A DNA stretch of 45,364 bases from positions 1-45,364 of the IMG/VR virus record IMGVR_UViG_3300026097_000039; one strand, given 5' to 3'. The stretch comes from a virus. Below are positions 6,676 to 45,364 of this stretch, piece by piece. A program made the position numbers and the translations under genes. The notes under the pieces are model-generated. The model worked only from the letters and a program-made list of their open reading frames with translations, searched no databases and was not told where the DNA came from. Within the stretch, counting starts at the first letter, position 1. Each line of letters opens with the position of its first letter.

Positions 6676-6689
6676 AAATATATTTATGG
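6672..6689. promoter_or_regulatory. Palindromic divergent late promoter overlapping both start codons
   Basis: CCATAAATATATTTATGG is a perfect 18-bp palindrome. It carries CATAAATA on each strand and, five bases after it on each strand, the ATG of the divergent genes at 6675 (minus) and 6686 (plus). Both transcripts would start at the AUG. Confidence 0.6.
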
Positions 6690-7855
6690 GCTTTTATTGT
6701 GCATTAGCAAACTATGGTATTACAATAGATAACGATGATACTTTGATGCCCTGCTGTCAGTACAATCTAAATAAAAGCCAATTGCCCAAGCTATCGCACC
6801 GTCAAGCAGCCGACTTTGAAAAAACAGTTAGGCCTCAAATTATCAAAGATCTAGAGCAAGGTGTGCTTCATGCGGGCTGTGATGTTTGCTGGCATCAGGA
6901 AAAAATCAGCGGCAAAAGTTTGCGCACAGACTCAAACAAATTCTACACAGATGATCCTCGTGGCATAGTTGACATGGAAGTAAGACTGGGCAATGTGTGC
7001 AATTTAAAATGTCCAATGTGTGGTCCTTATGCTAGCAGTTTGTGGTATGCAGAAATGTCTAAACATCGAGATCAGTTTATGGAAAACAATTACTATCGAT
7101 TGATTGACAAAAAAGATCCTGTCGACAGTCAGTACAAACCAGATCGAGATTATTACACCAGCAAATGGTATGATGAACAAACTGTGTTTGAATTTGTAGA
7201 TTTGCGTTTGCATAATTTGCGCAAATTAAACATCAGCGGAGGCGAGCCGTTTATGTCTGATACCATGCGGTCTATTCTTCAAACACTGTCAGCTCGACAA
7301 GATCTGCATCCTGATTTTACAATTCAAATCAACACCAACGGCACTGTACTTGATCAAACACACATAGAGTTGTTGCAAAAAATAAAATACAGAGTGAGAA
7401 TTTGCATAAGCCTGGAAGGTGTTGGCAAACACAATGACTACCTAAGACATCCTTCAAACTGGCAGGACATTGACAAAAATATCAAAATTTTATGCGGAAT
7501 TCGCGACAAACGTATAGAGAAAAATTTTAGTGTGACATCTCAGCACACCGTTCAGCCAGCAAGCGTGTACAGTTTTTTACCATTGGCAGAGTATTGCTAT
7601 CAAATGCGTATTCCTATGGTACTGAGTCCCGTGTACAACAGTAAAATGGATCTGTCTGCTATAAATCAAGATGAAAAAAATAAGGTAAAAAACATACACT
7701 GTGATACATGCGACCAAGATACATTGGAACGCTTCAAAAGGATAATAAGAAAAATCAATCCTAAAGAACAGTCAAGAAAATCCTACAAAAAATACATTGG
7801 GTTTTTGGATAAAATTAGAAACACCAACTATGAAAGCTTGTTTGGTCCTTTGTGA
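6686..7855 (+). CDS. Radical SAM protein, twitch/SPASM-like
   Basis: A 389-residue protein. The 4Fe-4S-SAM motif CxxxCxxC is at about Cys105, 109 and 112 (GNVCNLKCPMCGP), followed by NISGGEPF (GGE motif for SAM) and INTNGT. Extra Cys pairs occur at the N-terminus (MPCCQYN, CDVCW) and C-terminus (CDTCDQ), which may bind an auxiliary cluster. The substrate is unknown. It is one of only four plus-strand genes; its 3' end overlaps the convergent neighbour by 28 bp. Confidence 0.85.
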   Translation: MGFYCALANYGITIDNDDTLMPCCQYNLNKSQLPKLSHRQAADFEKTVRPQIIKDLEQGVLHAGCDVCWHQEKISGKSLRTDSNKFYTDDPRGIVDMEVRLGNVCNLKCPMCGPYASSLWYAEMSKHRDQFMENNYYRLIDKKDPVDSQYKPDRDYYTSKWYDEQTVFEFVDLRLHNLRKLNISGGEPFMSDTMRSILQTLSARQDLHPDFTIQINTNGTVLDQTHIELLQKIKYRVRICISLEGVGKHNDYLRHPSNWQDIDKNIKILCGIRDKRIEKNFSVTSQHTVQPASVYSFLPLAEYCYQMRIPMVLSPVYNSKMDLSAINQDEKNKVKNIHCDTCDQDTLERFKRIIRKINPKEQSRKSYKKYIGFLDKIRNTNYESLFGPL

Positions 7856-8597: not shown

Positions 8598-10997
8598 TTA
8601 TTTTTTCTTACGTCCCGACTTCATGTTGGCGCACCAGTGGTATCCTTTCTGTTTTTCGCCACTGCTGTTTTTAGCTTTCTTGCGTAGACTTGTAACACTT
8701 CCCTTGCAGCTAACACCTGCCTTTTTAAACCTTCCTGGTCTGCTTTTGCCTTTTACTTTACCATCAGCAAAGTTTTCGTCCAGTGTGGATTCTTTCATGG
8801 TTGCTACAAAGTATACACTGCCTGGATCTTGAGCATCAACAATTTCTTTTTCGTAGGCTTTGCGTAGGTCAGACACTCTGCGTTTGTATTCTTCACGATC
8901 AATTTCGCCACTAAGTTGTAGATCTAACAAGTGTGCCAGTTCTTTGGTTTCTTCTGCTTCGAGATCCTTGATATCTTGTGCTCGATTTAGTGTGCTGAAC
9001 TTGCTGTCTAAGTTGTCATCTACCATAGCATATTCATCAGATTTTTCGTCATACGCATAAACTGTTAGATCAGGATCTTGTGCTAGCTTTTTCCAAACAG
9101 CAGTGCCACCTGCACTTTGTTCTACGTCGCTTTTGATCACACCAACATCCTGTATTGCCACTTTGTACAATTCTGGCATTACACCTTGCCCTTGGTATTC
9201 TGGCAACATCATTGCCATGCTCATTTTGCCGCGACCCGGCGCACCCACCAGTTTTAGCATACCAAACGGTTTGTTGTCGTCTAACAAGAAGTAATAAATT
9301 GTATTGCCGTGTTTGCCTTTTGCCACAGCGTAGTTTTTTACACTGTCCCCTGTAAGCTCTGCTCCGCTTCCATCCAGTGCATCCTGAAAAAGATCTGGAC
9401 TGATGCCCATGTCATCTTTTTCGACATCTATTTGCTCGACTTCCGTTAGGTCTATGCCGCGCTTGGTTAGTTCCTTGCGAATTGCTTTTTTTAACTGTTG
9501 ATCCACTGGCTCGTTGGTGAGTTTTTTCAAAAAATTCATTAGATTTTTTGTATTGTATTGTTGTACTAGAACTGCGCTTTCTTTTACATTCTTTTTGTCT
9601 GCAATAGCAACCAATCTTACATCGCTAGATCTGTTAAGTTGTTTTAATTCTTCCATGCCTTTTGCATAATCAGCATTGCTAATTTTGCCATTTTCAAAAT
9701 CTCGTTGTAACTGATCCAGCTTATCTTCGTCGTAGTAGATTTCGCTGTCGTTATCTTCGTCAGGATTCCACTGGAAAAATTGATCATTGTTTTTGTCCCA
9801 TGCATACACAAATACACCAGGCACATTTGCAAGTTTTTTCCATATCCCCTCTTTGCTTCCTTTGCTTTGAATGTGATCACTTACAAGTGTATAGCCTTGT
9901 TTAATCGCATAAACATACAGAGGAAGTGCAATACCTTTGCCCTGGATCTCTGGATCAAAGAATACACTGCTTTTCCAATATTTGTCAAGATAGTTGGTTA
10001 ACATTAATGCCCCTAAAAATCCTTCACTGTCTGGATCTTTAATGAGGAAAAACTCCACTCCTTCCCTGTCTTTTTTAATATAATGTATGTCGTATCCTTT
10101 GATTGTGCTTACTTTTTTTGTTTTTCCGATAAAGTTATCATAATCCCCACGATACAAAAAATTTTTTTCGATGCGATTATCTATTTCGATTTCACTAATT
10201 TGCTTCCAACGTTCTGTAAGTTGTGCTACTTTATTTGTATCCTGTGAATTTTTAGTTGCTCGAGCGTGTAGCAGCGGTGGTTCGTTGTCTTTGTTTAGTT
10301 TGATACCTAGTTTTGCCGCCTGACGTTGTGTTTCTCCGGGCTTGACATCTGCTGTGGTATTTTGTGCATCAATAATACCCACACCAGCTACTTCGGCAAA
10401 AATACCTTTTGTTTTGGGTGTTTTTTTCTTGCCTATGTTTTTGAGTGCTCGTTTGATTTTGTTTATGCCGCTCACTGTGTAGAACATGGTTTTAAGCACA
10501 GGTATAGACACGCCCAGCACTATAGCAAGTTGTTTGATTTCTTCTAGATTGAACTGCCCAAAAAGCCCAGCCAAATCAGCCGCGGCTCCGGCGTCTTCGA
10601 TGGCAAACTCTGGATTGGAAGTTTTAAAATTGTCTTTTCTCATCACTGTTTTGGCAATGAGATCTAATTCTTGGTTGTTGGCGTCCCACACCAGTACAAA
10701 AGGCATGTTAACATCTGTCTTCATATCCTTCATAACTGCTTGTGCATCAGGCCCTAGTTGAGCAATTTTCTTGCCCCACTTTTTGAACTCTTGCTTGAAC
10801 AAGCGAGTAAGTTCTGCTAGTGTGATTTGACGTTGGTTGCGTTGATCATTTACACGATCTAGAAAGTGTTGTGTAAACTCTACATCAATGCCAACCTTGC
10901 CAAACAATCGATCAGCATATGCTTCAAGTTGTTCTAGATCACTGCGTGTTACTGGCGCTGATTCTGCACCTTCATTGAGCCAACTCCAATTGCTCAT
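8598..10997 (-). CDS. Large double-GNAT protein, putative head-packaged
   Basis: A 799-residue multidomain protein. Residues ~1-135 carry a domain with FTQHFLDRVNDQRNQR...ITLAELTRLFKQ seen in marine T4-like phages. A hydrophobic helix lies near 160-180. Two GNAT-like acetyltransferase folds follow: VFFDPEIQGKGIALPLYVYA near 345 and MLPEYQGQGVMPELYKVA near 600, each matching the Q/RxxGxG/A acetyl-CoA loop. An acidic coiled-coil region precedes a C-terminal module (GRFKKAGVSCKG, KGYHWCANMKSGRKKK). The N-terminus SNWSWLNE-GAES is a good prohead protease site. Substrate unknown; injected acetyltransferase activity is inferred. Confidence 0.75.
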   Translation of the reverse strand: MSNWSWLNEGAESAPVTRSDLEQLEAYADRLFGKVGIDVEFTQHFLDRVNDQRNQRQITLAELTRLFKQEFKKWGKKIAQLGPDAQAVMKDMKTDVNMPFVLVWDANNQELDLIAKTVMRKDNFKTSNPEFAIEDAGAAADLAGLFGQFNLEEIKQLAIVLGVSIPVLKTMFYTVSGINKIKRALKNIGKKKTPKTKGIFAEVAGVGIIDAQNTTADVKPGETQRQAAKLGIKLNKDNEPPLLHARATKNSQDTNKVAQLTERWKQISEIEIDNRIEKNFLYRGDYDNFIGKTKKVSTIKGYDIHYIKKDREGVEFFLIKDPDSEGFLGALMLTNYLDKYWKSSVFFDPEIQGKGIALPLYVYAIKQGYTLVSDHIQSKGSKEGIWKKLANVPGVFVYAWDKNNDQFFQWNPDEDNDSEIYYDEDKLDQLQRDFENGKISNADYAKGMEELKQLNRSSDVRLVAIADKKNVKESAVLVQQYNTKNLMNFLKKLTNEPVDQQLKKAIRKELTKRGIDLTEVEQIDVEKDDMGISPDLFQDALDGSGAELTGDSVKNYAVAKGKHGNTIYYFLLDDNKPFGMLKLVGAPGRGKMSMAMMLPEYQGQGVMPELYKVAIQDVGVIKSDVEQSAGGTAVWKKLAQDPDLTVYAYDEKSDEYAMVDDNLDSKFSTLNRAQDIKDLEAEETKELAHLLDLQLSGEIDREEYKRRVSDLRKAYEKEIVDAQDPGSVYFVATMKESTLDENFADGKVKGKSRPGRFKKAGVSCKGSVTSLRKKAKNSSGEKQKGYHWCANMKSGRKKK

Positions 10998-12028
10998 TTC
11001 TTTTTGCGTCCTTGGCAGTGTGCTCGCTGACTAAATCCTTTGGGATTGGCACAGTCTATGCTGTTTTTGTATTTTTGACTCCATGCTTCGCGAAAAGATT
11101 CTACGCTTTCACCTGCTTCCATCACAGCTATTTCGTCTGGCGTAAACGATTCTGCACGAACACCTTGAACCTTTTTTAGCAATAGTCGCACCATGGTAAT
11201 CAGTTTCATTTTCATTTCGTCACTGGCGGTGCCTTTGCTGTCAATGTCTCTAAAGTCTGCAATCATTTTGGTTGCACGAGCAATCTGCTTTGCTAGTACG
11301 CCATTTGCACCTGTGTAGAAACGCTTGGCCTTGCTCTTAGGCGGTGTTGGATCACTGCGGTAGTTGCCTAGTTCGTCTGGTCTTGCTGGTTGCACATCTT
11401 CTTTCACAGGTTGTATTTTGTCTCGCATGAGTTCGTGTATCTTTTCACTGTAGCTACCAAACAAATCTTTTACAATAAGTGCTTGCTGTTTAGCATCAGC
11501 AGATGCAAACTGCTGGCGTACTTCTGTGGCGCTTTTCATTGGCTTGCCTAGCAAGTCAAAGCGAAAAGTAGGCACAGCTTCAATGTAACCACGCTTGCTC
11601 AATGGTTCAAGATCGTCATCTTTGGGCAAAGGTGCAAAGTAACCCGGACTGCCATCTGCTTTGGGCTTGAACGCAAAACGTGGATCTTCCATCATGTCTT
11701 TTTCGCTGACCGCAAAAATAACTGCTGTATTTTCTGGATCAGCTACTTTGCTTGTAACTTCTGTTGCTTTGTATGGTTCTTTGACCTGTTTGACGCGGCT
11801 GCCTGGTACACCCACATGTCGCATGATGGTTTGTTTTTCTTGAAAGTTGAACGGACTTTTTGGAGGATCCACTTTGTCGCTGGTAACAATGTAGACATTG
11901 CTCACACCATACTTGTTAACCAAGTGGTCGTACACTGCTTTATGTCCTTTGTGAAAAGGATGGAATCTTCCTGGATAGAGAACTAGTGTTTGTGTAGTGT
12001 CTTGTTCTGTGATTTGCTCAATTTGCAT
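10994..12028 (-). CDS. HxGH nucleotidyltransferase with basic C-terminal module
   Basis: A 344-residue protein. Residues ~14-200 form a cytidylyltransferase/NMNAT-like domain: YPGRFHPFHKGHKAVYDHL with the HxGH ATP-binding motif, and near 165 SATEVRQQF, the second nucleotide contact (usually ISxTxxR). The C-terminal part is helical and ends SIDCANPKGFSQRAHCQGRKKK-like, a two-Cys basic module. N-terminal leader MQIEQITE. The nucleotide and acceptor are unknown; NMN or a phosphosugar are options. It overlaps the double-GNAT gene by four bases. Confidence 0.8.
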   Translation of the reverse strand: MQIEQITEQDTTQTLVLYPGRFHPFHKGHKAVYDHLVNKYGVSNVYIVTSDKVDPPKSPFNFQEKQTIMRHVGVPGSRVKQVKEPYKATEVTSKVADPENTAVIFAVSEKDMMEDPRFAFKPKADGSPGYFAPLPKDDDLEPLSKRGYIEAVPTFRFDLLGKPMKSATEVRQQFASADAKQQALIVKDLFGSYSEKIHELMRDKIQPVKEDVQPARPDELGNYRSDPTPPKSKAKRFYTGANGVLAKQIARATKMIADFRDIDSKGTASDEMKMKLITMVRLLLKKVQGVRAESFTPDEIAVMEAGESVESFREAWSQKYKNSIDCANPKGFSQRAHCQGRKKK

Positions 12029-21303: not shown

Positions 21304-21311
21304 TATTTATT
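21304..21311 (-). promoter_or_regulatory. Late promoter AATAAATA
   Basis: AATAAATA about 25 bases before the ATG at 21279. Drives the two conserved genes and possibly the lysis genes. Confidence 0.7.
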
Positions 21312-21714
21312 ACAACTTGCCTTCGGATCTCAGTTGTGCTCTGATCTTGGTTGCTGAAATTTCATGTATGTCTGCACCTAGATCGTGTTGTGTGAATGTG
21401 TATCCAACACCTCTGCCATAGCTGATATCAACTATATTAGGCACTTGCGTGATAACATAGTCTTCATCTTCGTGAAATCCTTCCGCAGCAAGTGCGGTTC
21501 TAATGTTTACTACCACTTGAGAAAATGTAAACGGGTTATCATTTTGTCCAGGTACCCTGGCGTTTGCTTCCGTGTCAGCTGGCACATCTCTGCACATAAT
21601 ACACACTTGTCCAGTTTCTAACAATGCTTTTTTAAAAAGGGCTGTGTGTCCATCGTGCCAAGGTTGCCAGCGGCCCATTAGCATAGTAGTCGGGTGCTTC
21701 CAGTTAAAACTCAT
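21310..21714 (-). CDS. HxGH nucleotidyltransferase (NMNAT/cytidylyltransferase-like)
   Basis: A 134-residue single-domain protein. MGRWQPWHDGHTALFKKAL near 13-31 has the HxGH motif and EISATKIRAQL near 120-130 has the ISxTxxR-type motif, so both ATP contacts are present. Short for NMNAT but typical of phage cytidylyltransferase-like proteins. The acceptor could be NMN, a sugar phosphate or sulfate. It adjoins an endonuclease gene, then DUF2061 and an APS-kinase-like gene. Confidence 0.82.
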   Translation of the reverse strand: MSFNWKHPTTMLMGRWQPWHDGHTALFKKALLETGQVCIMCRDVPADTEANARVPGQNDNPFTFSQVVVNIRTALAAEGFHEDEDYVITQVPNIVDISYGRGVGYTFTQHDLGADIHEISATKIRAQLRSEGKL

Positions 21715-22325
21715 ATTTTTTCCTTACAGTTATCAAAGTGTCTTTTTTTCATACTACCTAAATATCTTCCTTCGGACCCGCAATGCGGACATGTAATATT
21801 AGGTTTTGATTTAATAGTATTCGCAGATTTTAATCTTGATTCTTTAGTTATTACTTGTTTTTTTCTTGCTTGACGAATTTTATTTTTTGTTTCTTCACTT
21901 ACAGATTTACCTGTGTGTGTTTGTTTAATTCTTTCCCTGTGAGCAGGATCTTCCCATAATGCCTTAGATGCCTGTCTTAGTTTTTCTATATATTCTGGAT
22001 TTTGGTTTCTGTTCTTTGCGGCTACGCTTAATTTATTTCTTACTTCTTCATCTAAATTAAACATTAAATTATTTCGTTGATTATATACACTTTCAGATGT
22101 AAGATCTAATTCATTTAACATTCTATTTTCAACTTCTTGACATTCCTTCATTGGTCCTTTGTGTAAAATTTCTCTTTCCCAAATATAATCAGGATTATTA
22201 AAATCGTTCCAAAACCTCTCAGATGCTGAAGAACACACATAGCCGTCGTTTTCTGTTCCTTTGTGGTATCCTATATAAATCTTATTCAATGTCTTGTTTG
22301 TCCAACGATATACAAATGAGTCCAT
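21711..22325 (-). CDS. GIY-YIG homing endonuclease (Seg-like)
   Basis: A 204-residue protein: a GIY-YIG-type N-terminal domain (YRWTNKTLNKIYIGYHKG; Tyr-x-Tyr and Gly-Tyr core), a NUMOD-like helical middle (SEETKNKIRQARKK) and a C-terminal zinc finger (CPHCGSEGRYLGSMKKRHFDNC, Cys2-His-Cys). This is the Seg plan. It lies between the two halves of a possible nucleotide/sulfation cluster and has its own late promoter, as T4 seg and mob genes do. Confidence 0.88.
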   Translation of the reverse strand: MDSFVYRWTNKTLNKIYIGYHKGTENDGYVCSSASERFWNDFNNPDYIWEREILHKGPMKECQEVENRMLNELDLTSESVYNQRNNLMFNLDEEVRNKLSVAAKNRNQNPEYIEKLRQASKALWEDPAHRERIKQTHTGKSVSEETKNKIRQARKKQVITKESRLKSANTIKSKPNITCPHCGSEGRYLGSMKKRHFDNCKEKI

Positions 22326-22343
22326 AACTTTCTCCTACAAAGT

Positions 22344-22351
22344 TATTTATC
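22344..22351 (-). promoter_or_regulatory. Late promoter GATAAATA for the homing endonuclease
   Basis: GATAAATA 18 bases before the ATG at 22325, with AGGAG in between. The 22352-22416 remainder shows no gene. Confidence 0.75.
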
Positions 22352-22416
22352 ATATTGTGCCATTAACCTAACATTTATGCCACCGGCCCAACATCTGTGT
22401 GGTAGGTTTCTTCCAA

Positions 22417-22644
22417 TCAAATTTCTTTTCCATCTTTTACTCCGTATTTGATGTATCTATACCATATTCGTTCATGACCGTAGTACAGCACAAACTTTAT
22501 AACTAAATCTGCTAAAAACACAGCACCCACTGCTTTTGGCGGCAAGCCAAAAAACCAAGCAATAAGTGCTGTTGTAATACTGGCTATGATTCGCCAGGTG
22601 ACTGCTTTGGCAATGTGTCTTTTTCTTTCAACAGCATGACTCAT
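22417..22644 (-). CDS. DUF2061 membrane protein
   Basis: A 75-residue protein: basic N-terminus, HIAKAVTWRIIASITTALIAW, and LVIKFVLYYGHERIWYRY, the two signatures of DUF2061. Two membrane helices are expected. In bacteria this domain is often encoded beside sulfate-activation genes; here it overlaps the APS-kinase-like gene by four bases, which supports that link. Confidence 0.85.
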   Translation of the reverse strand: MSHAVERKRHIAKAVTWRIIASITTALIAWFFGLPPKAVGAVFLADLVIKFVLYYGHERIWYRYIKYGVKDGKEI

Positions 22645-23060
22645 GCAACCGACTCCTGTAGATGGTTGGCAAAACTTTGAATTTCGCTGTCAGACAGATG
22701 TCTTGTTATGTGAAAGTGCACATGCCCTACAGGTGGCTCAAACATTTTGTTGGTGTCTTCAAACCTGCCTTGAGAAATAGTGTCTACCCATATCACTATG
22801 TCTGCACCAAATGCAGATCTTGCTGACTCGGTAGGACACACAAAATCACACATCACGTGTCTTCCGTTGGATTTTTCAAAGTCTGCAAAGGTTCTCATGC
22901 GATTGGCCTGCCTTATTCTGCCTTCTGGTGCAAAGTCCCAGTCATTGGCCATTTCTCTGACTGCGTCAGCATTGTACCAAGCATAGCCCAGGTGTTTTTG
23001 TAATCTTTGCGCAAGATGAGTTTTTCCTGAACCAGGAAGACCCATTATAAGAATTTTCAT
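22641..23060 (-). CDS. Adenylylsulfate (APS) kinase-like P-loop protein
   Basis: A 139-residue protein. GLPGSGKTHLAQRL (residues ~7-20) is the P-loop; WYNADAVREMANDWDF and CDFVCPTESARSAF match the APS-kinase pattern (NAD-x-VR and DF..P). It should phosphorylate APS to PAPS, the donor used by the sulfotransferase at 39549. Other small kinases of the family are possible. Transcribed from its own late promoter. Confidence 0.82.
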   Translation of the reverse strand: MKILIMGLPGSGKTHLAQRLQKHLGYAWYNADAVREMANDWDFAPEGRIRQANRMRTFADFEKSNGRHVMCDFVCPTESARSAFGADIVIWVDTISQGRFEDTNKMFEPPVGHVHFHITRHLSDSEIQSFANHLQESVA

Positions 23061-23160: not shown

Positions 23161-23232
23161 GTGATTGGGTCCTGCCTAATCTTTAGACAGGGCTCTGTCC
23201 AAATGCAAATATTTGGAGGCAACTTTGTCTAA
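23161..23232 (+). CDS. Possible 23-codon leader peptide of phoH
   Basis: GTG at 23161 (five bases after CTAAATA) opens a reading frame that ends in TAA at 23230-23232, five bases beyond the phoH TTG start. An internal ATG at 23203 gives a shorter version. It also covers a small hairpin (GACAG/CTGTC) near 23186. It may couple or attenuate phoH translation; evidence is positional only. Confidence 0.3.
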   Translation: MIGSCLIFRQGSVQMQIFGGNFV

Positions 23233-23947
23233 GAAGCAAAAACGCAACTTTAACAATTCAAACGTAAGTAATTTCAATGATTTCGTCAGAGAACGAAAAA
23301 GATCAATCGAACTCATTCCTAGAAGCTTGAATCAGGAAAAATACATAGATTTATTGCTGGATCGCTCAAAATACATTGTATTTGCCAGTGGTCCTGCAGG
23401 AACAGGAAAAACCATGTTGGCTACCTTAGCTGGAATTCGCGCACTCAAAGAGCGAAGCATTGATAAAATAGTGCTAACTAGACCAGCAGTTGGCGTAGAC
23501 GACGAAAAGCATGGTTTTTTACCAGGGGACCTAAATCAAAAAATGGAACCTTGGACCAAACCATTATTTGACGTATTTGCGGAGTACTATTCACCGCAAG
23601 AAATTGCCAAAATGCTAGAAGAACAAACAATTGAAATAAGCCCACTAGCATTTATGCGTGGTAGAACTTTTAAAAACAGCTGGATCATCGCTGACGAGAT
23701 GCAGAATGCGACACCATCGCAAATGAAGATGTTGCTAACACGCTTGGGCGAAAACAGTCAAATGGTGGTCACAGGAGACATCAAACAGGCGGATAGAGCC
23801 AACAATGAGAACGGCTTGCTGGATTTCAGCATGCTCTATGAACGTTATGGCAAAAGCACGATGATAGATTTCGTCCAGTTTGAAAACAAAGACATTGAAC
23901 GTCATCCAGTGGTAGAAGAAGTACTCAAAATGTATGGCGAAGGATAA
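23225..23947 (+). CDS. phoH: PhoH-like P-loop ATPase
   Basis: A 240-residue protein with GPAGTGKTMLA (about 56-66) and the PhoH-specific TRPAVGVDDEKHGFLPGD, RGRTFKNSWIIADEMQNA (Walker B) and TGDIKQAD. A predicted ATPase/RNA-associated enzyme, widespread in marine phages. No ATG is in frame; I choose TTG at 23225 because GGAGG stands at the right distance upstream. It ends in a strong hairpin terminator. Confidence 0.93.
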   Translation: MSKKQKRNFNNSNVSNFNDFVRERKRSIELIPRSLNQEKYIDLLLDRSKYIVFASGPAGTGKTMLATLAGIRALKERSIDKIVLTRPAVGVDDEKHGFLPGDLNQKMEPWTKPLFDVFAEYYSPQEIAKMLEEQTIEISPLAFMRGRTFKNSWIIADEMQNATPSQMKMLLTRLGENSQMVVTGDIKQADRANNENGLLDFSMLYERYGKSTMIDFVQFENKDIERHPVVEEVLKMYGEG

Positions 23948-23974: not shown

Positions 23975-26122
23975 TTAGGCAATATCCAAGCCAAAATTCT
24001 GCAGAGTCGGAATGTGTAGAGGTGTAAATTCCTCAGAAAATTCACTTGCCCAAACAGCAAAGTCGTCTCTGCCCATGGAGTTGGCCATGTCCACATACAC
24101 TTGAGCTTGACTCTGCGTAGGAGTAGCACCAATGAGGTTTTCATACAGTGTGTCAACAGTGTCTTCTACAGTGTAATCGCCAATGTAATCTAATGCGGCG
24201 CCGGCCACCATCTCATCACTCCACCCTTGCTGATACAAATCCAAACCAATGCTCACAATGTTTGGATCACGCAGTGTTTCAACTCCAAGTGTTGCAGTCA
24301 CCACACTGGCCAAACTGCCCAAGTTGTCTGAATAACTGATGTTGGCCACACCGTCGTCTACTGTAAACTCGTTGTTCCACACAGCAAATTCTATTCCGTT
24401 GGCAACTTGGTCAGCGGTTTTTTGCTTGTTTTCTGCACTTTCGCTGAAATGATACAATAAATGGGCTCTGGTAAACCCAGGCGTATTTTCCAAGTCATTT
24501 AGCCACCATGCAAAGCCTTCTGCATCCGGGTCACGTCCAAGCACATTGTTGTACAGGGCTGTGATGTATTGTTCGTTTGAAGAATCGGCACCATAGGTGT
24601 TGGCGAATTCTGCGCTTTGTAAAAAGCTGTTGGCTGTGCCCAGCAGGTTCAGTTTACCAGTGTCCAGCATATTGATCCAATAGCCCAAACCTTCGGCATC
24701 CGGAGTTCGGTCAAATGCAGCACTGTACAATCTATAGGCCTGTCCTGCGTTACCTTCAACGTCAAATGCAATGCTACGGTCTTCAAGATACAAACGATCT
24801 CTGCTGAACATGGTGTCGTTTTCGTACACCATCATGTACTCGCCGTAGTTTCCGCCAGGTGTTGGGTGGTCCCTGTAGATTTTTTCTTGCCAGATTGCTT
24901 CTGCTGATCCGTCATTGTCAATGTCTGCCCAGTGCAAACTTGGTTCTTGCCAATCTTCTAAGTCAGCAATTTTTAACAATTCTTTATTAACAGGTGAAAA
25001 GTTGCCCTGGCGGTCGTTGAGCCACACGCTTTCGTTGATGCTCTCATTTTCAATGCCATACGTCTCAACATAAAAATCGTCAAAGCCATCGTTGTTGAAG
25101 TCTAAAAGTCCCAGCCCGTTGTTGCCTACGCCATCATTGAAAATTGGAATAGATTTTTCTTCGTCAAGCTGAAAAGTTCCGTTTGCTTTTTGAAGGTAGA
25201 CTCCCAAAGATAAGTCGCCTGCATTTTCAATGAATTCAGCTTCAAGCACAGCAAGAAAATCTTCCATGCCGTCGCCGTTTATATCACTTCCGTGAATTTC
25301 GATAGATCCAAATTGACTATGGATTCCTGAGGCATGTGGTTTTTCCACTTGTTGAACAATCTCGTATACGCCATTAGCATCTTTTTGATAAATGTCTATG
25401 TTGTTGATAGATTCTATTTGATCGTTTCTATGAATATAGTTTCCGGCTACTATAGTAGGGTCTCCACTGTTTTCTAAAAAACCTATACCCGAATAGCTGT
25501 ATTGTAAATCTGAAAGCCTAAATGTTGAAGTGTCTGGCCTAAATTCTGGAGAGACAAGCTTTTCTGATGCATAGGTAAATTGTCCCTGACCGTTGTTTAA
25601 GTAAATATCTAGATGCTCAAATGCCGCAACAACAAGGTCTAAATCTCCGTCACCGTCAACATCGCCCGAATCTCCGATGTGATTAAAACTACCCGAGCCG
25701 TTTCGATTTGGCGTGCCTACAATTAATGAGCTTGTATCAATAGGACCACCGGCAGAACCTTGCACATACTTGATATTGCTTCCAAAAAAGAAATCCGAGT
25801 CTCTATTGTTCCCCTCTAGCCCTTGATCTAGTAAAATACTGTCGCTATAACCATCTGTATTAAAGTCGCCGTCCACACTAAATCGCATATATTCGGTGGT
25901 AAATGGCAGTGCTTTGGGCGTATAGCTATTTCCGTTATTTTCCCAGTATACTGATTGCATTAGTGGCGTTTGAATAAAATTACTAGGATGAGAAATGATA
26001 TCAATATCCCCATCAGCATCATAATCGCCAAAACTTAAATTTGGCTTGCCCATTGGATACAATCCAGGTACTGCATTTGCGTCGTCATAATACACAGGGC
26101 TTTGTGATGTTTTGTTCAGCAT
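23975..26122 (-). CDS. FG-GAP/VCBS repeat and DUF4214 protein
   Basis: A 715-residue protein unlike ordinary T4 genes. The first ~440 residues carry repeated calcium-binding-like loops (FGDYDADGDIDII, DVDGDGDLDLVVA, DINGDGMEDFLAV, DFNNDGFDDFYV, DIDNDGSAEAIW), the FG-GAP/VCBS plan of a beta-propeller. The rest holds two DUF4214 repeats (FDRTPDAEGLGYWINMLD, LGRDPDAEGFAWWLNDLE), typical of bacterial secreted RTX-type proteins. No N-terminal signal peptide is seen. Likely acquired from a bacterium; virion adhesin or secreted effector are both possible. Follows the HAD gene by one base. Confidence 0.85.
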   Translation of the reverse strand: MLNKTSQSPVYYDDANAVPGLYPMGKPNLSFGDYDADGDIDIISHPSNFIQTPLMQSVYWENNGNSYTPKALPFTTEYMRFSVDGDFNTDGYSDSILLDQGLEGNNRDSDFFFGSNIKYVQGSAGGPIDTSSLIVGTPNRNGSGSFNHIGDSGDVDGDGDLDLVVAAFEHLDIYLNNGQGQFTYASEKLVSPEFRPDTSTFRLSDLQYSYSGIGFLENSGDPTIVAGNYIHRNDQIESINNIDIYQKDANGVYEIVQQVEKPHASGIHSQFGSIEIHGSDINGDGMEDFLAVLEAEFIENAGDLSLGVYLQKANGTFQLDEEKSIPIFNDGVGNNGLGLLDFNNDGFDDFYVETYGIENESINESVWLNDRQGNFSPVNKELLKIADLEDWQEPSLHWADIDNDGSAEAIWQEKIYRDHPTPGGNYGEYMMVYENDTMFSRDRLYLEDRSIAFDVEGNAGQAYRLYSAAFDRTPDAEGLGYWINMLDTGKLNLLGTANSFLQSAEFANTYGADSSNEQYITALYNNVLGRDPDAEGFAWWLNDLENTPGFTRAHLLYHFSESAENKQKTADQVANGIEFAVWNNEFTVDDGVANISYSDNLGSLASVVTATLGVETLRDPNIVSIGLDLYQQGWSDEMVAGAALDYIGDYTVEDTVDTLYENLIGATPTQSQAQVYVDMANSMGRDDFAVWASEFSEEFTPLHIPTLQNFGLDIA

Positions 26123-39522: not shown

Positions 39523-39549
39523 GTATACACTATACAAGGACAAAGTCAA
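39522..39549 (-). promoter_or_regulatory. Sigma70-type early promoter for the infA operon
   Basis: TTGACT (39544-39549), 16-bp spacer, TATACT (39522-39527). The leader carries AGGAG before the ATG at 39488. The -35 covers the first codon of the divergent sulfotransferase gene. Confidence 0.78.
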
Positions 39550-40214
39550 TGAATTTTACATCAGTGGGCATTCAAAGATCTGGTACAAACTACGTGCAAA
39601 GCTTTTTCGAAAAGCAAGGATTTAAACACATAAGCAAGAGTCCTGGGAATTTGTTTGATCTTCCGTTCTATGCATGGAAACATTGGACCGATCCGCAGAG
39701 ATTTGTCAAAGATGTAGGACACAAACACTTGACAATAGTAGTATCAAAGCATCCATTAAAGTGGCTGGAAAGCATACTTCGCAATCCTGCAGATATAAGT
39801 TTTATGTATCCTGCTGTTCAGTATGGTGCAAATCGAGTGCATTGCCCGCACGGCTGGAGACTGCAACGTTTTAGTCATTTGAGTGTGGACTCGCTGTTGA
39901 ATCACTACAATACCTTTTACAGTAACTGGCACAACACCCAATTGTTTAACAATTTTTACACTGTGAGATATGAAGATATGCTGGATATAGATTTTGTTAA
40001 CGAGTTTGTAGAAGGCGTGTGCTACGACCACAATCACCCATTTACAAAGTTGCACGCCAAACCCAAAGATGTATCTATGAGTGCCGGAGGAAGGTCAGAA
40101 GAATATTTGCAAACCTACAAAAGTATAGAGCATAACTTGCCAGAAAAATTTGTAGATGTGGCAAAAAGCAAACTGAGTACTAGCTTGCTTGAGAAACTTG
40201 GTTATACTCTGTGA
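39549..40214 (+). CDS. Sulfotransferase-like protein
   Basis: A 221-residue protein with GIQRSGTNYVQSFF near 7-20, which matches the PAPS 5'-phosphosulfate loop, and VVSKHPLKWLESILR near 63-77, which matches the 3'-phosphate-binding segment. RYEDM near 140 is the usual third motif. It should transfer sulfate from PAPS to a sugar or other acceptor. The APS-kinase-like gene at 22641 could supply PAPS. Its 3' end overlaps the convergent peptidase gene by 35 bp. Confidence 0.83.
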   Translation: MNFTSVGIQRSGTNYVQSFFEKQGFKHISKSPGNLFDLPFYAWKHWTDPQRFVKDVGHKHLTIVVSKHPLKWLESILRNPADISFMYPAVQYGANRVHCPHGWRLQRFSHLSVDSLLNHYNTFYSNWHNTQLFNNFYTVRYEDMLDIDFVNEFVEGVCYDHNHPFTKLHAKPKDVSMSAGGRSEEYLQTYKSIEHNLPEKFVDVAKSKLSTSLLEKLGYTL

Positions 40215-40640: not shown

Positions 40641-40668
40641 ATAATAACACATTGTGCTGAATTGTCAA
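40641..40668 (-). promoter_or_regulatory. Sigma70-type early promoter
   Basis: TTGACA (40663-40668), 16-bp spacer, TATTAT (40641-40646). The -35 overlaps the stop of the radical SAM gene. Confidence 0.82.
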
Positions 40669-41867
40669 GGCACTTGTTTGTAAAAGTCTACTCTTTTTAA
40701 GTAGTAATTTTTGTCTTCAGCATTTATATATTTAAAAAGTTTATTAAGACTACAAGTTTCTTGCTTAACCAAAACATCCCACTTGGCAGTAAAATCTAAA
40801 TAACCTAACCATGCATCTTTGTTGTTTGAAGTTTTTATGCTTTCTCTTAAACCTACTAATACATCGCGAAATCTTTCTGTGTTTGGTTGTTTTAAAAAAC
40901 CGTGGTTTATAGCTTTGTCGAGCGTGTCAAATATTAGATCTTGTAGATAGACTGGAACATTTTCAGGCATCAATTCAGTAGGTTGATATAAGTGCCAACT
41001 AAACATAGAAAATCTACGCTGGTCTATTGTTAGAGTAAATTTTTGCCAAAAGTTTATTATATCAGGAAGATACAAAATATTATTTAGACTAACAACTGGT
41101 GCAACTGCTAAATTAATGTCAAAATTATAATTTAAATATGGTTTTATAACCTCAAGATGTTTTTCAATTTTTGTAAACTTTCCTGGAAATCTTACCAGTG
41201 AGTAATTATCGTCCACGCTATCTATGCTTGCGATTATTTCTGTTCTTGCAAATTTGGTGCATTTATTTAGAAAATCATTGTTAATTTTGCTGTAAAAACT
41301 TGTGGTTATACGAAGTGTGATGAACTTTGCAATATTTTTTGATATACACCAATCTAAAAGTTTATAAAAACCAGGAGCCAGCAATGGTTCGCCGCCAATA
41401 GGATGAATTATAATTTCTTTGTCTGTGAATACTTTGTGTTCTATGTAATTAAGTATTTTATTCCACGTATCTGAATCTTCTGTTATGTCTGTAGAAATAG
41501 ATTCATACTGAGGAACAGTGCTAGTAATTTTTTGATATGTGCTACTATCGTTAGGATTGCAAAATCTGCAAGCTAAATTGCACAAATTGCTAAACTTTAT
41601 ACCTATTTCGAACACAGGCTTGTGGTCAAAAGATTGTAAACTTAGTCTTTCTGATATTGCTCCGGCTAGTTCTTCTTTTTTGCACAAATTGCACTCTTTG
41701 GGAAATATACCTTTGTCTAACGTGCTGGATATTTTTTGAATAAATTCAAAATCCAAGTGACCAGAATTGTTATTATCTAGATTACAACAAACAGTAAGTT
41801 TAGTATCTTTGCCAGAATTTCTAAAGTTTATCCTAGCGTGCGGAGCTCCGCAAAAATATTTTGACAA
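40665..41867 (-). CDS. Radical SAM protein, second copy
   Basis: A 400-residue protein. CxxxCxxC at about Cys96, 100 and 103 (SNLCNLACRFCNP), then HPIGGEPLL (GGE motif). Cys pairs at the N-terminus (VCCN, CNLC) parallel those in the gene at 6686. The start is TTG at 41867: GGAAG stands at the right distance and no ATG is available. Late promoter upstream. Substrate unknown. Confidence 0.83.
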   Translation of the reverse strand: MSKYFCGAPHARINFRNSGKDTKLTVCCNLDNNNSGHLDFEFIQKISSTLDKGIFPKECNLCKKEELAGAISERLSLQSFDHKPVFEIGIKFSNLCNLACRFCNPNDSSTYQKITSTVPQYESISTDITEDSDTWNKILNYIEHKVFTDKEIIIHPIGGEPLLAPGFYKLLDWCISKNIAKFITLRITTSFYSKINNDFLNKCTKFARTEIIASIDSVDDNYSLVRFPGKFTKIEKHLEVIKPYLNYNFDINLAVAPVVSLNNILYLPDIINFWQKFTLTIDQRRFSMFSWHLYQPTELMPENVPVYLQDLIFDTLDKAINHGFLKQPNTERFRDVLVGLRESIKTSNNKDAWLGYLDFTAKWDVLVKQETCSLNKLFKYINAEDKNYYLKRVDFYKQVP

Positions 41868-43519: not shown

Positions 43520-44227
43520 TTATGTTGCTCTTGATAATAGCATATCGCGAATATGCCCAATGGCCTTTGTAGGATTTAAACCTTTAGGACACACGCTCAC
43601 ACAGTTCATAATGCCGCGGCAACGAAATACTGAGAACGGATCATCCAGTTCGCTCAGGCGTTCTTCTGTGGCCGTGTCTCTAGTGTCTGCGATAAAACGA
43701 TATGCGGCAAGTGCAGCCTGTGGGCCCAAAAACTTGTCAGGATTCCACCAGAAACTTGGACAGGCTGTGCTACAGCAGGCACACATAATACATTCATACA
43801 TACCATCTAGTTTTGCACGATCTTCTGGTGATTGCAGTCGTTCTTGATTGGGTGTGGCAGTGTCGTTTTTGAGATAAGGTGCCACACGCTGATACTGTTT
43901 GTAGAAAATAGTCATGTCCACAACCAAGTCACGAATCACAGGCAGACCGGGCAAGGGACGGATTACTAGTTTTTTGCCGGGCTTTACAACTTCTGACACC
44001 GGTGTAATACAGGCCAGTCCGTTTTTACCATTCATGTTTACACCGTCAGAACCACAAACACCCTCCCTGCAACTTCTACGGAAGGTAAGGGTTTGGTCCT
44101 GTTCTTTTGCTCGGATCATAACATCCAACACCATTAGATCCCGATCGGTGGGAACATCCACTTCAACATCCTGCATCCAAGGTGCTGAATCTGTTTCTGG
44201 ATTGTATCTATAAACACTGACCTGCAT
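43520..44227 (-). CDS. sdhB: Succinate dehydrogenase iron-sulfur subunit
   Basis: A 235-residue, full-length SdhB. The [2Fe-2S] motif FRRSCREGVCGSDG and NGKNGLACIT near 50-76, then CIMCACCSTACP near 147-158 and CRGIMNCVSVCPKGLNP near 203-219 for the [4Fe-4S] and [3Fe-4S] clusters. It transfers electrons from SdhA to quinone in the inner membrane. The SDGVNMNGKNGLACIT variant is the gamma/betaproteobacterial type. No sdhA, sdhC or sdhD is seen here. A TATAAATA late promoter precedes it and a phage-type small gene follows, so it belongs to the phage. A rare auxiliary gene. Confidence 0.94.
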   Translation of the reverse strand: MQVSVYRYNPETDSAPWMQDVEVDVPTDRDLMVLDVMIRAKEQDQTLTFRRSCREGVCGSDGVNMNGKNGLACITPVSEVVKPGKKLVIRPLPGLPVIRDLVVDMTIFYKQYQRVAPYLKNDTATPNQERLQSPEDRAKLDGMYECIMCACCSTACPSFWWNPDKFLGPQAALAAYRFIADTRDTATEERLSELDDPFSVFRCRGIMNCVSVCPKGLNPTKAIGHIRDMLLSRAT

Positions 44228-44245: not shown

Positions 44246-44253
44246 TATTTATA
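44246..44253 (-). promoter_or_regulatory. Late promoter TATAAATA (full consensus) for sdhB
   Basis: TATAAATA about 19 bases before the sdhB ATG, over the dadA stop, with AAGGAG in the leader. It shows that sdhB is expressed from a phage late promoter. Confidence 0.85.
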
Positions 44254-45364
44254 GTTGTCCTACAATCTGTTTTGCTGTGTATGCACTCAGCGTCCAACCA
44301 AGATGCCCGTGTCCTGTGTTATAGTATAGATTATTAAACTTAGCACTCTGTCGGGCAATGGGCATCATGTTTGGAGTCATAGGACGCAGTCCTGCCCAAG
44401 GTTCAACATGCTCCATGTTTATGCCTGGCAACATTTTCTCTGCCCAGTTTTTAAGTGGGCGTATCCTTGATTGCTTGATGTCTCTGTTATAGCCGGTAAA
44501 CTCTGCCGTGCCTGCTATCCTCAATCTGTTTTCACCTAATCTGGCTGTGACTACTTTTGCAGTGTCGTCCAGAAGACTTGCCCATGGTGCAACTTCGGGA
44601 TCATGTATGGTGATACTGTATCCTTTTACAGGATAGATAGGCAGTGTTTCGCCAATCTGTCTGCTTAGATCTCGACTTTCGACACCCGCACAGAGAAACA
44701 CAGGTCCTGTTTCGCCCGTCACATATTGATGTAGATTGTAGATTTTATTATGTTCAAATGTGACGTCGCGGTTTTTTTCTAACCAACGCATAAGATTCAC
44801 ACTAAACTTGTGTATGTCTCCTGTATAGTCTTGTGTATTATAGAAACCACCTATGATCTCAGGATTGTTCAGTGCGGGCTCTATGTCTTTTACTTCGTCT
44901 GCGGTGACTTCCCATCTTTCTAATCCTGCCTGTAGATATAGGAGATTTGTTTGCCTTGCGCTTGCCAGTTCTTTAGGATCTGTATAAACATGCAAGATGC
45001 CTTTTTCTACTCTATCGAACTGAATACCTGTGACGTCCGCAATCTGTCTGTATAGGTCATGTGCCTCCAATGCCATTTCGCAAGTAGCACGAGTATTTGC
45101 TTCTCGCTGAGGAATAGCCATCATGAACTTCATAAACCAACCATATTTGTGTAGGCTGGGTGTGGGATCTATTTTGAGAGGAGCATCTTTTTTGAACAAC
45201 CATTTTGCTCCTTTTGCAACATTGTGCCAACTGTTCCAGGTTTCGGCATTGCTGGCACTTAACTGCCCGCCATTTGCATATGAAGTTGCCATGGCAGGAT
45301 ATGCCCTTTGTTCTATTACACGCACACTGTATCCTGCTTGAGCAAGATAGTATGCGGTTGTGAC
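44249..45364 (-). CDS. dadA: D-amino acid dehydrogenase, 5' end outside window
   Basis: 372 residues visible, running off the right edge. The frame begins VTTAYYLAQAGYSVRVIEQR, the end of the FAD-binding Rossmann motif, so the start is only ~10 residues beyond. Then SYANGGQLSASNAETWNSW (flavin/substrate loop) and the C-terminal GLRPMTPNMMPIARQS and TGHGHLGWTLS that are conserved in DadA. It oxidises D-amino acids such as D-alanine, passing electrons to quinone. Located next to sdhB, whose electrons also go to quinone. Confidence 0.9.
   Translation of the reverse strand, partial: VTTAYYLAQAGYSVRVIEQRAYPAMATSYANGGQLSASNAETWNSWHNVAKGAKWLFKKDAPLKIDPTPSLHKYGWFMKFMMAIPQREANTRATCEMALEAHDLYRQIADVTGIQFDRVEKGILHVYTDPKELASARQTNLLYLQAGLERWEVTADEVKDIEPALNNPEIIGGFYNTQDYTGDIHKFSVNLMRWLEKNRDVTFEHNKIYNLHQYVTGETGPVFLCAGVESRDLSRQIGETLPIYPVKGYSITIHDPEVAPWASLLDDTAKVVTARLGENRLRIAGTAEFTGYNRDIKQSRIRPLKNWAEKMLPGINMEHVEPWAGLRPMTPNMMPIARQSAKFNNLYYNTGHGHLGWTLSAYTAKQIVGQL

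Follow-up and report, generated by a model that had tools for sequence, protein, structure and literature searches.

Sulfate enters biological use through ATP sulfurylase, an enzyme of which, to our knowledge, only two unrelated kinds, Sat and CysDN, are recognised. The linear virus record IMGVR_UViG_3300026097_000039 of IMG/VR (45,364 bases), which was analysed here over its whole length and is referred to as the window, carries a small kinase resembling APS kinase and, a short distance away on the same strand, an HxGH nucleotidyltransferase (hereafter NT). The question raised by this locus is whether these proteins could make up a pathway of sulfate activation, as a first-pass annotation made from the sequence had proposed, and, if so, which of them would supply APS, which would convert it into PAPS and what would use the product.

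Gene order and conservation of the pair

The four open reading frames named in the first-pass annotation were all recovered at their positions: a P-loop kinase, proposed here as an APS kinase (22641–23060, minus strand, 139 aa), a small membrane protein with a DUF2061 domain (22417–22644, minus strand, 75 aa), NT (21310–21714, minus strand, 134 aa) and, far from these, a sulfotransferase-like protein (39549–40214, plus strand, 221 aa). The kinase gene overlaps that of DUF2061, as had been stated, by 4 bases. A further gene, missing from that annotation's list, encodes a homing endonuclease (21711–22325, minus strand, 204 aa; PHROG_314, 1.9e-19) and sits between DUF2061 and NT, the order on the minus strand being kinase, DUF2061, homing endonuclease and NT. 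The next two genes down from NT match virion structural families. The same phage is also represented in IMG/VR by a longer contig (L084, 83,266 bases), in which the module is identical.

Two scans of IMG/VR returned 591 and 216 relatives. Co-occurrence of the genes across related phages had been put forward as a check on the pathway, and for two of them it was found: kinase and NT lie side by side in the 127 fetched loci that carry both (loci not deduplicated). Two of these loci have them fused. They form one protein, with the kinase first and NT second, in Stenotrophomonas phage DLP_6 and Clavibacter phage 33, and fused forms occur in some SAR11 as well. The two proteins also correspond to the halves of a single family, PHROG_10255 ('kinase', a profile of 230 positions), whose N-terminal part matches the kinase (4.5e-29) and whose C-terminal part matches NT (6.2e-18). 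Given this constant adjacency and the shared PHROG family, the clustering cannot be put down to chance. Three loci (L128, L134, and L135) have an extra open reading frame of about 150 aa (MPLSETQ...WKIPHSGVTLFDH...) between the kinase and NT.

Related viral loci recurrently carry, no more than about 3 kb from the module, genes resembling kdsA, kdsB, epimerase, nucleotide-sugar dehydrogenase and TagD genes (named by eye), which points to a cargo of surface-glycan genes. That kdsA-like, kdsB-like, epimerase-like and TagD-like genes lie a few kb away in several phage loci would also suit a general kinase and nucleotidyltransferase of glycan precursors, situated near sugar genes and producing a CDP- or ADP-linked unit. 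These sugar genes vary between loci, however, while the kinase and NT are constant, and the contexts in cells consist of sulfur genes (see below), so that we hold such a role to be extremely improbable.

The kinase

Among Pfam families the kinase matched AAA_18 (8e-10) and APS_kinase (PF01583, 4.9e-6; 27.1 bits, above the cutoff of 21.1), and PF01583 was matched by all 89 of its 89 aligned relatives (E ≤ 0.001); the score remained below the equivalog cutoff of TIGR00455. Its best sequence match in the PDB was the APS kinase 2yvu (1e-11), and the kinase domains of PAPS synthetases came next among the small kinases. The AlphaFold2 model (mean pLDDT 95) led to the same group, as each of the 26 best VIA matches was an APS kinase or a PAPS synthetase (Z 15 to 17.1, rmsd about 2.1, 138 residues), gluconate kinase coming after the APS kinases in the ranking with a Z of 15.2, within 2 units of the top.

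Alignment with canonical CysC revealed that the Walker A, xxDxxR, DF/GF, R48, xFxxP, and FxxxxxxFxxP elements are kept, the active-site stretches of the phage protein being GLPGSGKT, NADxxR, WDF, EGR, and DFVCP, while the Asn of the CysC motif ENIRR is replaced by Gln. The lid segment of CysC (RDxKGLYKKARxGEI) is deleted in the phage and SAR11 kinases and retained in a haloarchaeal fusion protein described below. Since this segment is missing, we label the protein APS-kinase-like; judged by its alignment, it is a relative of APS kinase whose lid is shortened, and not a canonical CysC. The initial reading of the kinase as an enzyme of APS and PAPS is supported by PF01583, by the sequence and fold matches in the PDB and by the aligned active site.

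The nucleotidyltransferase

NT carries the motifs GRWQPWHDGH, YGRGVGY and ISATKIR, and the stretches GRxQPWHxxH, YGRxVGY, and SATxIR are invariant across its relatives. The succession of HDGH, GR(G/D)VGY and IS(A/G)TxxR is like that of HxxH, GRD, and ISGTxxR in Sat; HxGH and ISxTxxR are found in NMNAT and PPAT too. The window protein scored just under the cutoff of CTP_transf_like (7.5e-4), and when 75 relatives were compared with Pfam only two families were matched, CTP_transf_like by 49 and the ATP-sulfurylase family PF01747 by 6, all of the latter matches lying below the cutoff (best E 0.0035; 11.6–15.0 bits vs. 24.3 in the SAR11 members that were checked). The closest matches of NT in fold (model pLDDT 82) and in sequence are archaeal NMNAT and PPAT (Z 10–11, the best archaeal NMNAT reaching 10.9; 24% identity), and the NCBIfam models that score it best are NMNAT models, with the curated cutoff missed by far (31.3 vs. 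127 bits). The 50 structural matches listed for the model do not include ATP sulfurylase, which excludes nothing, and comparison with a Sat profile, here made of seven plasmid and SAR11 proteins, gave no significant match (Prob 1.8).

These affinities bring in a NadR-like salvage of NAD, in which the kinase would act on nicotinamide riboside and NT would join NMN to AMP so that NAD is refilled during infection. The closest solved relatives of NT are archaeal NMNATs, NMNAT models score best, the kinase also matches AAA_28, which we take to be a family including NadR C-termini, and phage NAD pathways are known; going by the modelled folds this is the best rival. Against it, the kinase has the predicted fold of an APS kinase, in bacteria the pair has cysQ, aprMBA and sulfotransferase genes as neighbours, among which no NAD gene was noted, and a separate NadD was present in 24 of the 25 NT genomes tested. 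Salvage of NAD would also leave unexplained the exchange with cysD-cysNC and the fusion with a textbook CysC that are reported in the following sections, and we judge it very unlikely.

Since the substrate of NT cannot be read from its sequence alone, the assignment rests on genomic context, and on that basis we conclude that NT is a candidate compact ATP sulfurylase, remotely Sat-like. The first-pass annotation had allowed that the HxGH enzyme could be linked to the pathway but may act on another nucleotide; its link to the pathway stands, as a predicted ATP sulfurylase, while action on another nucleotide is not favoured.

DUF2061 and the homing endonuclease

The DUF2061 protein matched PF09834 well above the cutoff (4.3e-14; 53.1 bits vs. 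23.1). Its gene lies between the kinase and NT in 42 of the 127 loci and elsewhere nearby in another 4. In two SAR11 loci (L293 and L294) a DUF2061 gene (PF09834, 6e-17) is found downstream of cysD-cysNC, and in Microvirga the domain is fused to the C-terminus of CysN (1e-19). The earlier remark that DUF2061 accompanies genes of sulfate activation is thus borne out in the phage loci, in the two SAR11 loci and by the CysN fusion, and a domain whose function was so far unknown can be placed in sulfate activation, presumably as an accessory membrane protein, a role predicted from these associations. DUF2061 has been reported to be iron- or Fur-responsive in Caulobacter and Shewanella, and its role may therefore extend beyond sulfate.

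The homing endonuclease is absent from nearly all other loci, one of which (L148) has a relative with 73% identity at the same site, and it is a passenger of the module. It was also considered whether the endonuclease had split a formerly fused gene, which is not favoured: in nearly all marine phages the kinase and NT are separate, intact neighbours, and the endonuclease is the sole extra.

Exclusion and exchange in SAR11-type genomes

SAR11-type chromosomes encode relatives of NT as well. By tblastn, 78 of 80 such loci have the kinase immediately upstream of NT; counts based on open reading frames miss many of these kinases because an antisense frame overlaps them. Two samples of genomes were screened, 150 from the order of G001 (HIMB59-like, a name inferred from the membership) and 197 from the order of G010 (Pelagibacteraceae). 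In the former, NT was detected in 47 genomes and CysD in 79, and never were both together, with 25 such genomes expected (p = 2.4e-21); in the latter, NT was detected in 151 and CysD in 10, again never together (p = 2.1e-7). Over the two orders, 198 of 347 genomes have NT and none has it jointly with CysD, although these p-values overstate independence, as the genomes are incomplete and related by descent. Canonical Sat was found in only 2 of the 150 genomes from the order of G001; the NT genomes that also carry Sat are G005 and G135. Canonical APS kinase (E around 1e-70) tracks CysD, and the genomes with NT mostly have only a weak kinase match, located beside NT. Sulfotransferases of PF00685 are encoded in 123 of the 150 genomes, in the NT and CysD groups alike, which implies that the NT genomes need PAPS.

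The strongest single item is a gene-for-gene swap of cysD-cysNC for kinase-NT beside the PAP phosphatase gene cysQ. In the loci L282–L289, cysQ, cysD and cysNC are followed by a hisD-like gene of opposite orientation and by other genes common to both arrangements; in the HIMB59-type loci L298 and L299 the order is cysQ, kinase, NT and the hisD-like gene, with the same outer genes (the kinase in loci of this type was recognised by tblastn or PF01583).

A second setting of NT involves sulfite oxidation by AprBA, which needs ATP sulfurylase and not APS kinase, as described in the literature for other taurine degraders too. NT was present in 13 of the 14 genomes with a full aprA (p = 8e-7) and adjoins aprA in 30 of the 80 SAR11 loci. 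In two of them (L270 and L271) it heads, without a kinase, a series of aprM, aprB, aprA and a putative TSUP exporter (names given by eye), where it appears to occupy the place expected for sat. A fused kinase-NT gene adjoins a PF00685 sulfotransferase gene in a polysaccharide cluster of another SAR11 locus (L280). Most SAR11 have been described as lacking ATP sulfurylase despite aprAB (PMC10356861), and in Pelagibacteraceae the sulfate pathways are incomplete while aprAB are among the most constrained core genes (PMC12636525). The kinase-NT pair is a testable candidate for this gap in SAR11, the ocean's most abundant bacteria.

These loci also bear on a reading in which the kinase is indeed an APS kinase, with NT adenylylating another oxyanion or a sulfonated metabolite, or acting as an APS:phosphate adenylyltransferase. 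NT is not recognisably Sat, and the aprMBA setting runs toward APS breakdown, which would be possible for such an enzyme too. The NT genomes that have sulfotransferases and lack CysD, CysN, and Sat would, however, need APS from sulfate to make PAPS, and the swap with the whole cysD-cysNC unit implies forward activity, hence we regard this alternative as unlikely.

Fused forms in haloarchaea and Microvirga

On haloarchaeal plasmids, a protein of 285 aa joins a textbook CysC (PF01583, 1.2e-45) to an NT with the motifs GRDVGY and ISGTETR, and in five of five annotated plasmid records the fused gene follows a sulfotransferase gene. The plasmid of Microvirga lotononidis has a fused kinase-NT gene as well (L306, 7575–8357), in the order export ABC genes, sulfotransferase (PF13469, 7e-15), fused kinase-NT, CysD and CysN-DUF2061, an arrangement that may be likened to the nodH/nodPQ region. 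Here the NT motifs are worn (HESH, GLDLGY, and VSPTAVQ) next to an intact CysD-CysN, and decay of NT beside CysDN fits redundancy, as one case and a possible natural test.

Evolution of the pair

A tree was built from the concatenated kinase and NT (73 rows, 276 columns, with a distant outgroup). Twenty rows from HIMB59- and Apr-type SAR11 nest within those of the phages, several consecutive forks having starred branches, and the copies of core Pelagibacter make up a clade of their own. This suggests, and does not prove, a transfer of the pair from phages to HIMB59/Apr-type SAR11; kinase-NT would be a frequent phage cargo that may have passed to the host.

Use of the product in the phage

The first-pass annotation had assigned the PAPS made by the kinase to the sulfotransferase at 39549. 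This protein, a possible user of PAPS, matches Sulfotransfer_3 (0.0084; 16.8 bits vs. 27) and Sulfotransfer_1 (0.056; 13.3 bits vs. 22) below their cutoffs. By eye, GIQRSGTNYV near its N-terminus resembles the P-loop of sulfotransferases and SKHPLKWLES lies at the expected R...S position with Lys in place of Arg; the catalytic His was not picked out. Relatives in IMG/VR were limited to the longer contig of the same phage. The sulfotransferase-type P-loop motif was found in none of 818 open reading frames (≥ 150 aa) that surround the module of related phages, and among 22 long phage contigs PF13469 gave weak matches in two only. Beyond this phage the proposed link finds no support, as the matches are below cutoff, no other relatives were detected in IMG/VR and no evident sulfotransferase was seen near the module in related phages, and we treat the connection of the module with the gene at 39549 as weak. 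PAPS for sulfation is a plausible benefit to the phage, and the supply of host sulfotransferases or APS turnover may be alternatives.

Other genes in the window

Several further genes were noted. At 43520–44227 (minus strand) lies a gene for a near full-length SdhB-like iron-sulfur protein (NCBIfam, 5e-107), with relatives of 60–86% identity on about 30 IMG/VR contigs, some of them deep in viral contigs of 155 kb and 262 kb amid phage-like genes; the next gene is alternative oxidase-like in one of these loci (L326), and another (L345) has a cytochrome-c-like gene (both by eye). The SdhB-like gene and its neighbours are possibly phage-borne respiratory genes. It adjoins, at the end of the contig, a gene for an FAD-dependent oxidoreductase (44249–45325, minus strand; DAO, 3e-46). 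A second HxGH-type gene (10994–12028, minus strand) encodes 344 aa with an N-terminal CTP_transf_like domain, followed by a weak match to a PHROG head maturation protease. Radical SAM proteins are encoded at 40665–41867 (minus strand; twitch-domain family, 2e-46, just under the cutoff) and at 6686–7855 (plus strand). A 715-aa protein with FG-GAP repeats and DUF4214 domains (23975–26122, minus strand) is encoded beside a PhoH-like gene (named by eye; 23213–23947, plus strand).

A candidate sulfate-activation system

The protein families and folds, the pairing and the fusions, the exclusion of CysD, the exchange with cysD-cysNC, and the contexts of cysQ, aprMBA and sulfotransferases all argue for sulfate activation. 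What speaks against it is that NT is nearer to NMNAT and PPAT than to Sat, that two NT genomes have Sat, that CysDN is present in Microvirga, and that other phages show no obvious PAPS user close to the module. On balance, the kinase and NT, with an accessory DUF2061 protein and a passenger endonuclease, very probably form a candidate two-enzyme system of sulfate activation, for which both reactions are predicted. NT would convert ATP and sulfate reversibly into APS and PPi, and the lid-shortened kinase would transfer phosphate from ATP to APS, yielding PAPS and ADP. In cells the pair would replace CysDN and CysC, or Sat and CysC; in the phage it would raise APS and PAPS during infection, possibly for a phage or host sulfotransferase.

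Somewhat less firmly, we consider it fairly likely that NT represents a third, non-orthologous type of ATP sulfurylase of about 130 residues, which hundreds of marine phages carry together with a small APS kinase, that phage copies entered SAR11-type chromosomes and there took the very place of cysD-cysNC, and that NT supplies the missing last step of AprBA sulfite oxidation in SAR11. No description of the kinase-NT system was found in the literature (open-licence papers), and the phage gene pair looks like a miniature, previously unrecognised machinery of sulfate activation.

Comparison with known systems

The closest parallel in architecture is PAPS synthetase (PAPSS), an APS kinase fused to ATP sulfurylase, which likewise unites the two activities predicted here for one operon or protein, and its order of kinase and then nucleotidyltransferase is repeated in the fusions of phages, SAR11, Microvirga and haloarchaea. 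Unlike in PAPSS, the second domain is here NMNAT-like, of about 130 aa and not Sat, and only the haloarchaeal form has the CysC lid. With CysD-CysN-CysC, kinase-NT shares the chromosomal slot next to cysQ, and DUF2061 may follow either, whereas NT is unrelated to the PP-loop protein CysD and the GTPase CysN; neither PP-loop nor GTPase domains were detected by Pfam in the module proteins of the window and its relatives. In Sat (PF01747), HxxH, GR-type and ISxTxxR motifs follow one another as they do in NT, which stands in the place expected for sat beside aprMBA, and the sulfate-binding Q-x-R of Sat presumably corresponds to G-R-W in NT; NT differs in being much shorter, in having no PUA-like N-terminal part and in giving no significant profile match. 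Archaeal NMNAT and PPAT share GRxQPxHxGH, ISxTxxR, and the fold with NT, which is set apart from them by a constant GRxVGY, an APS-kinase partner, sulfur neighbours and a separate NadD. PHROG_10255 is the family itself, from which the window differs in that each half is encoded by a gene of its own and that DUF2061 and a homing endonuclease lie in between.
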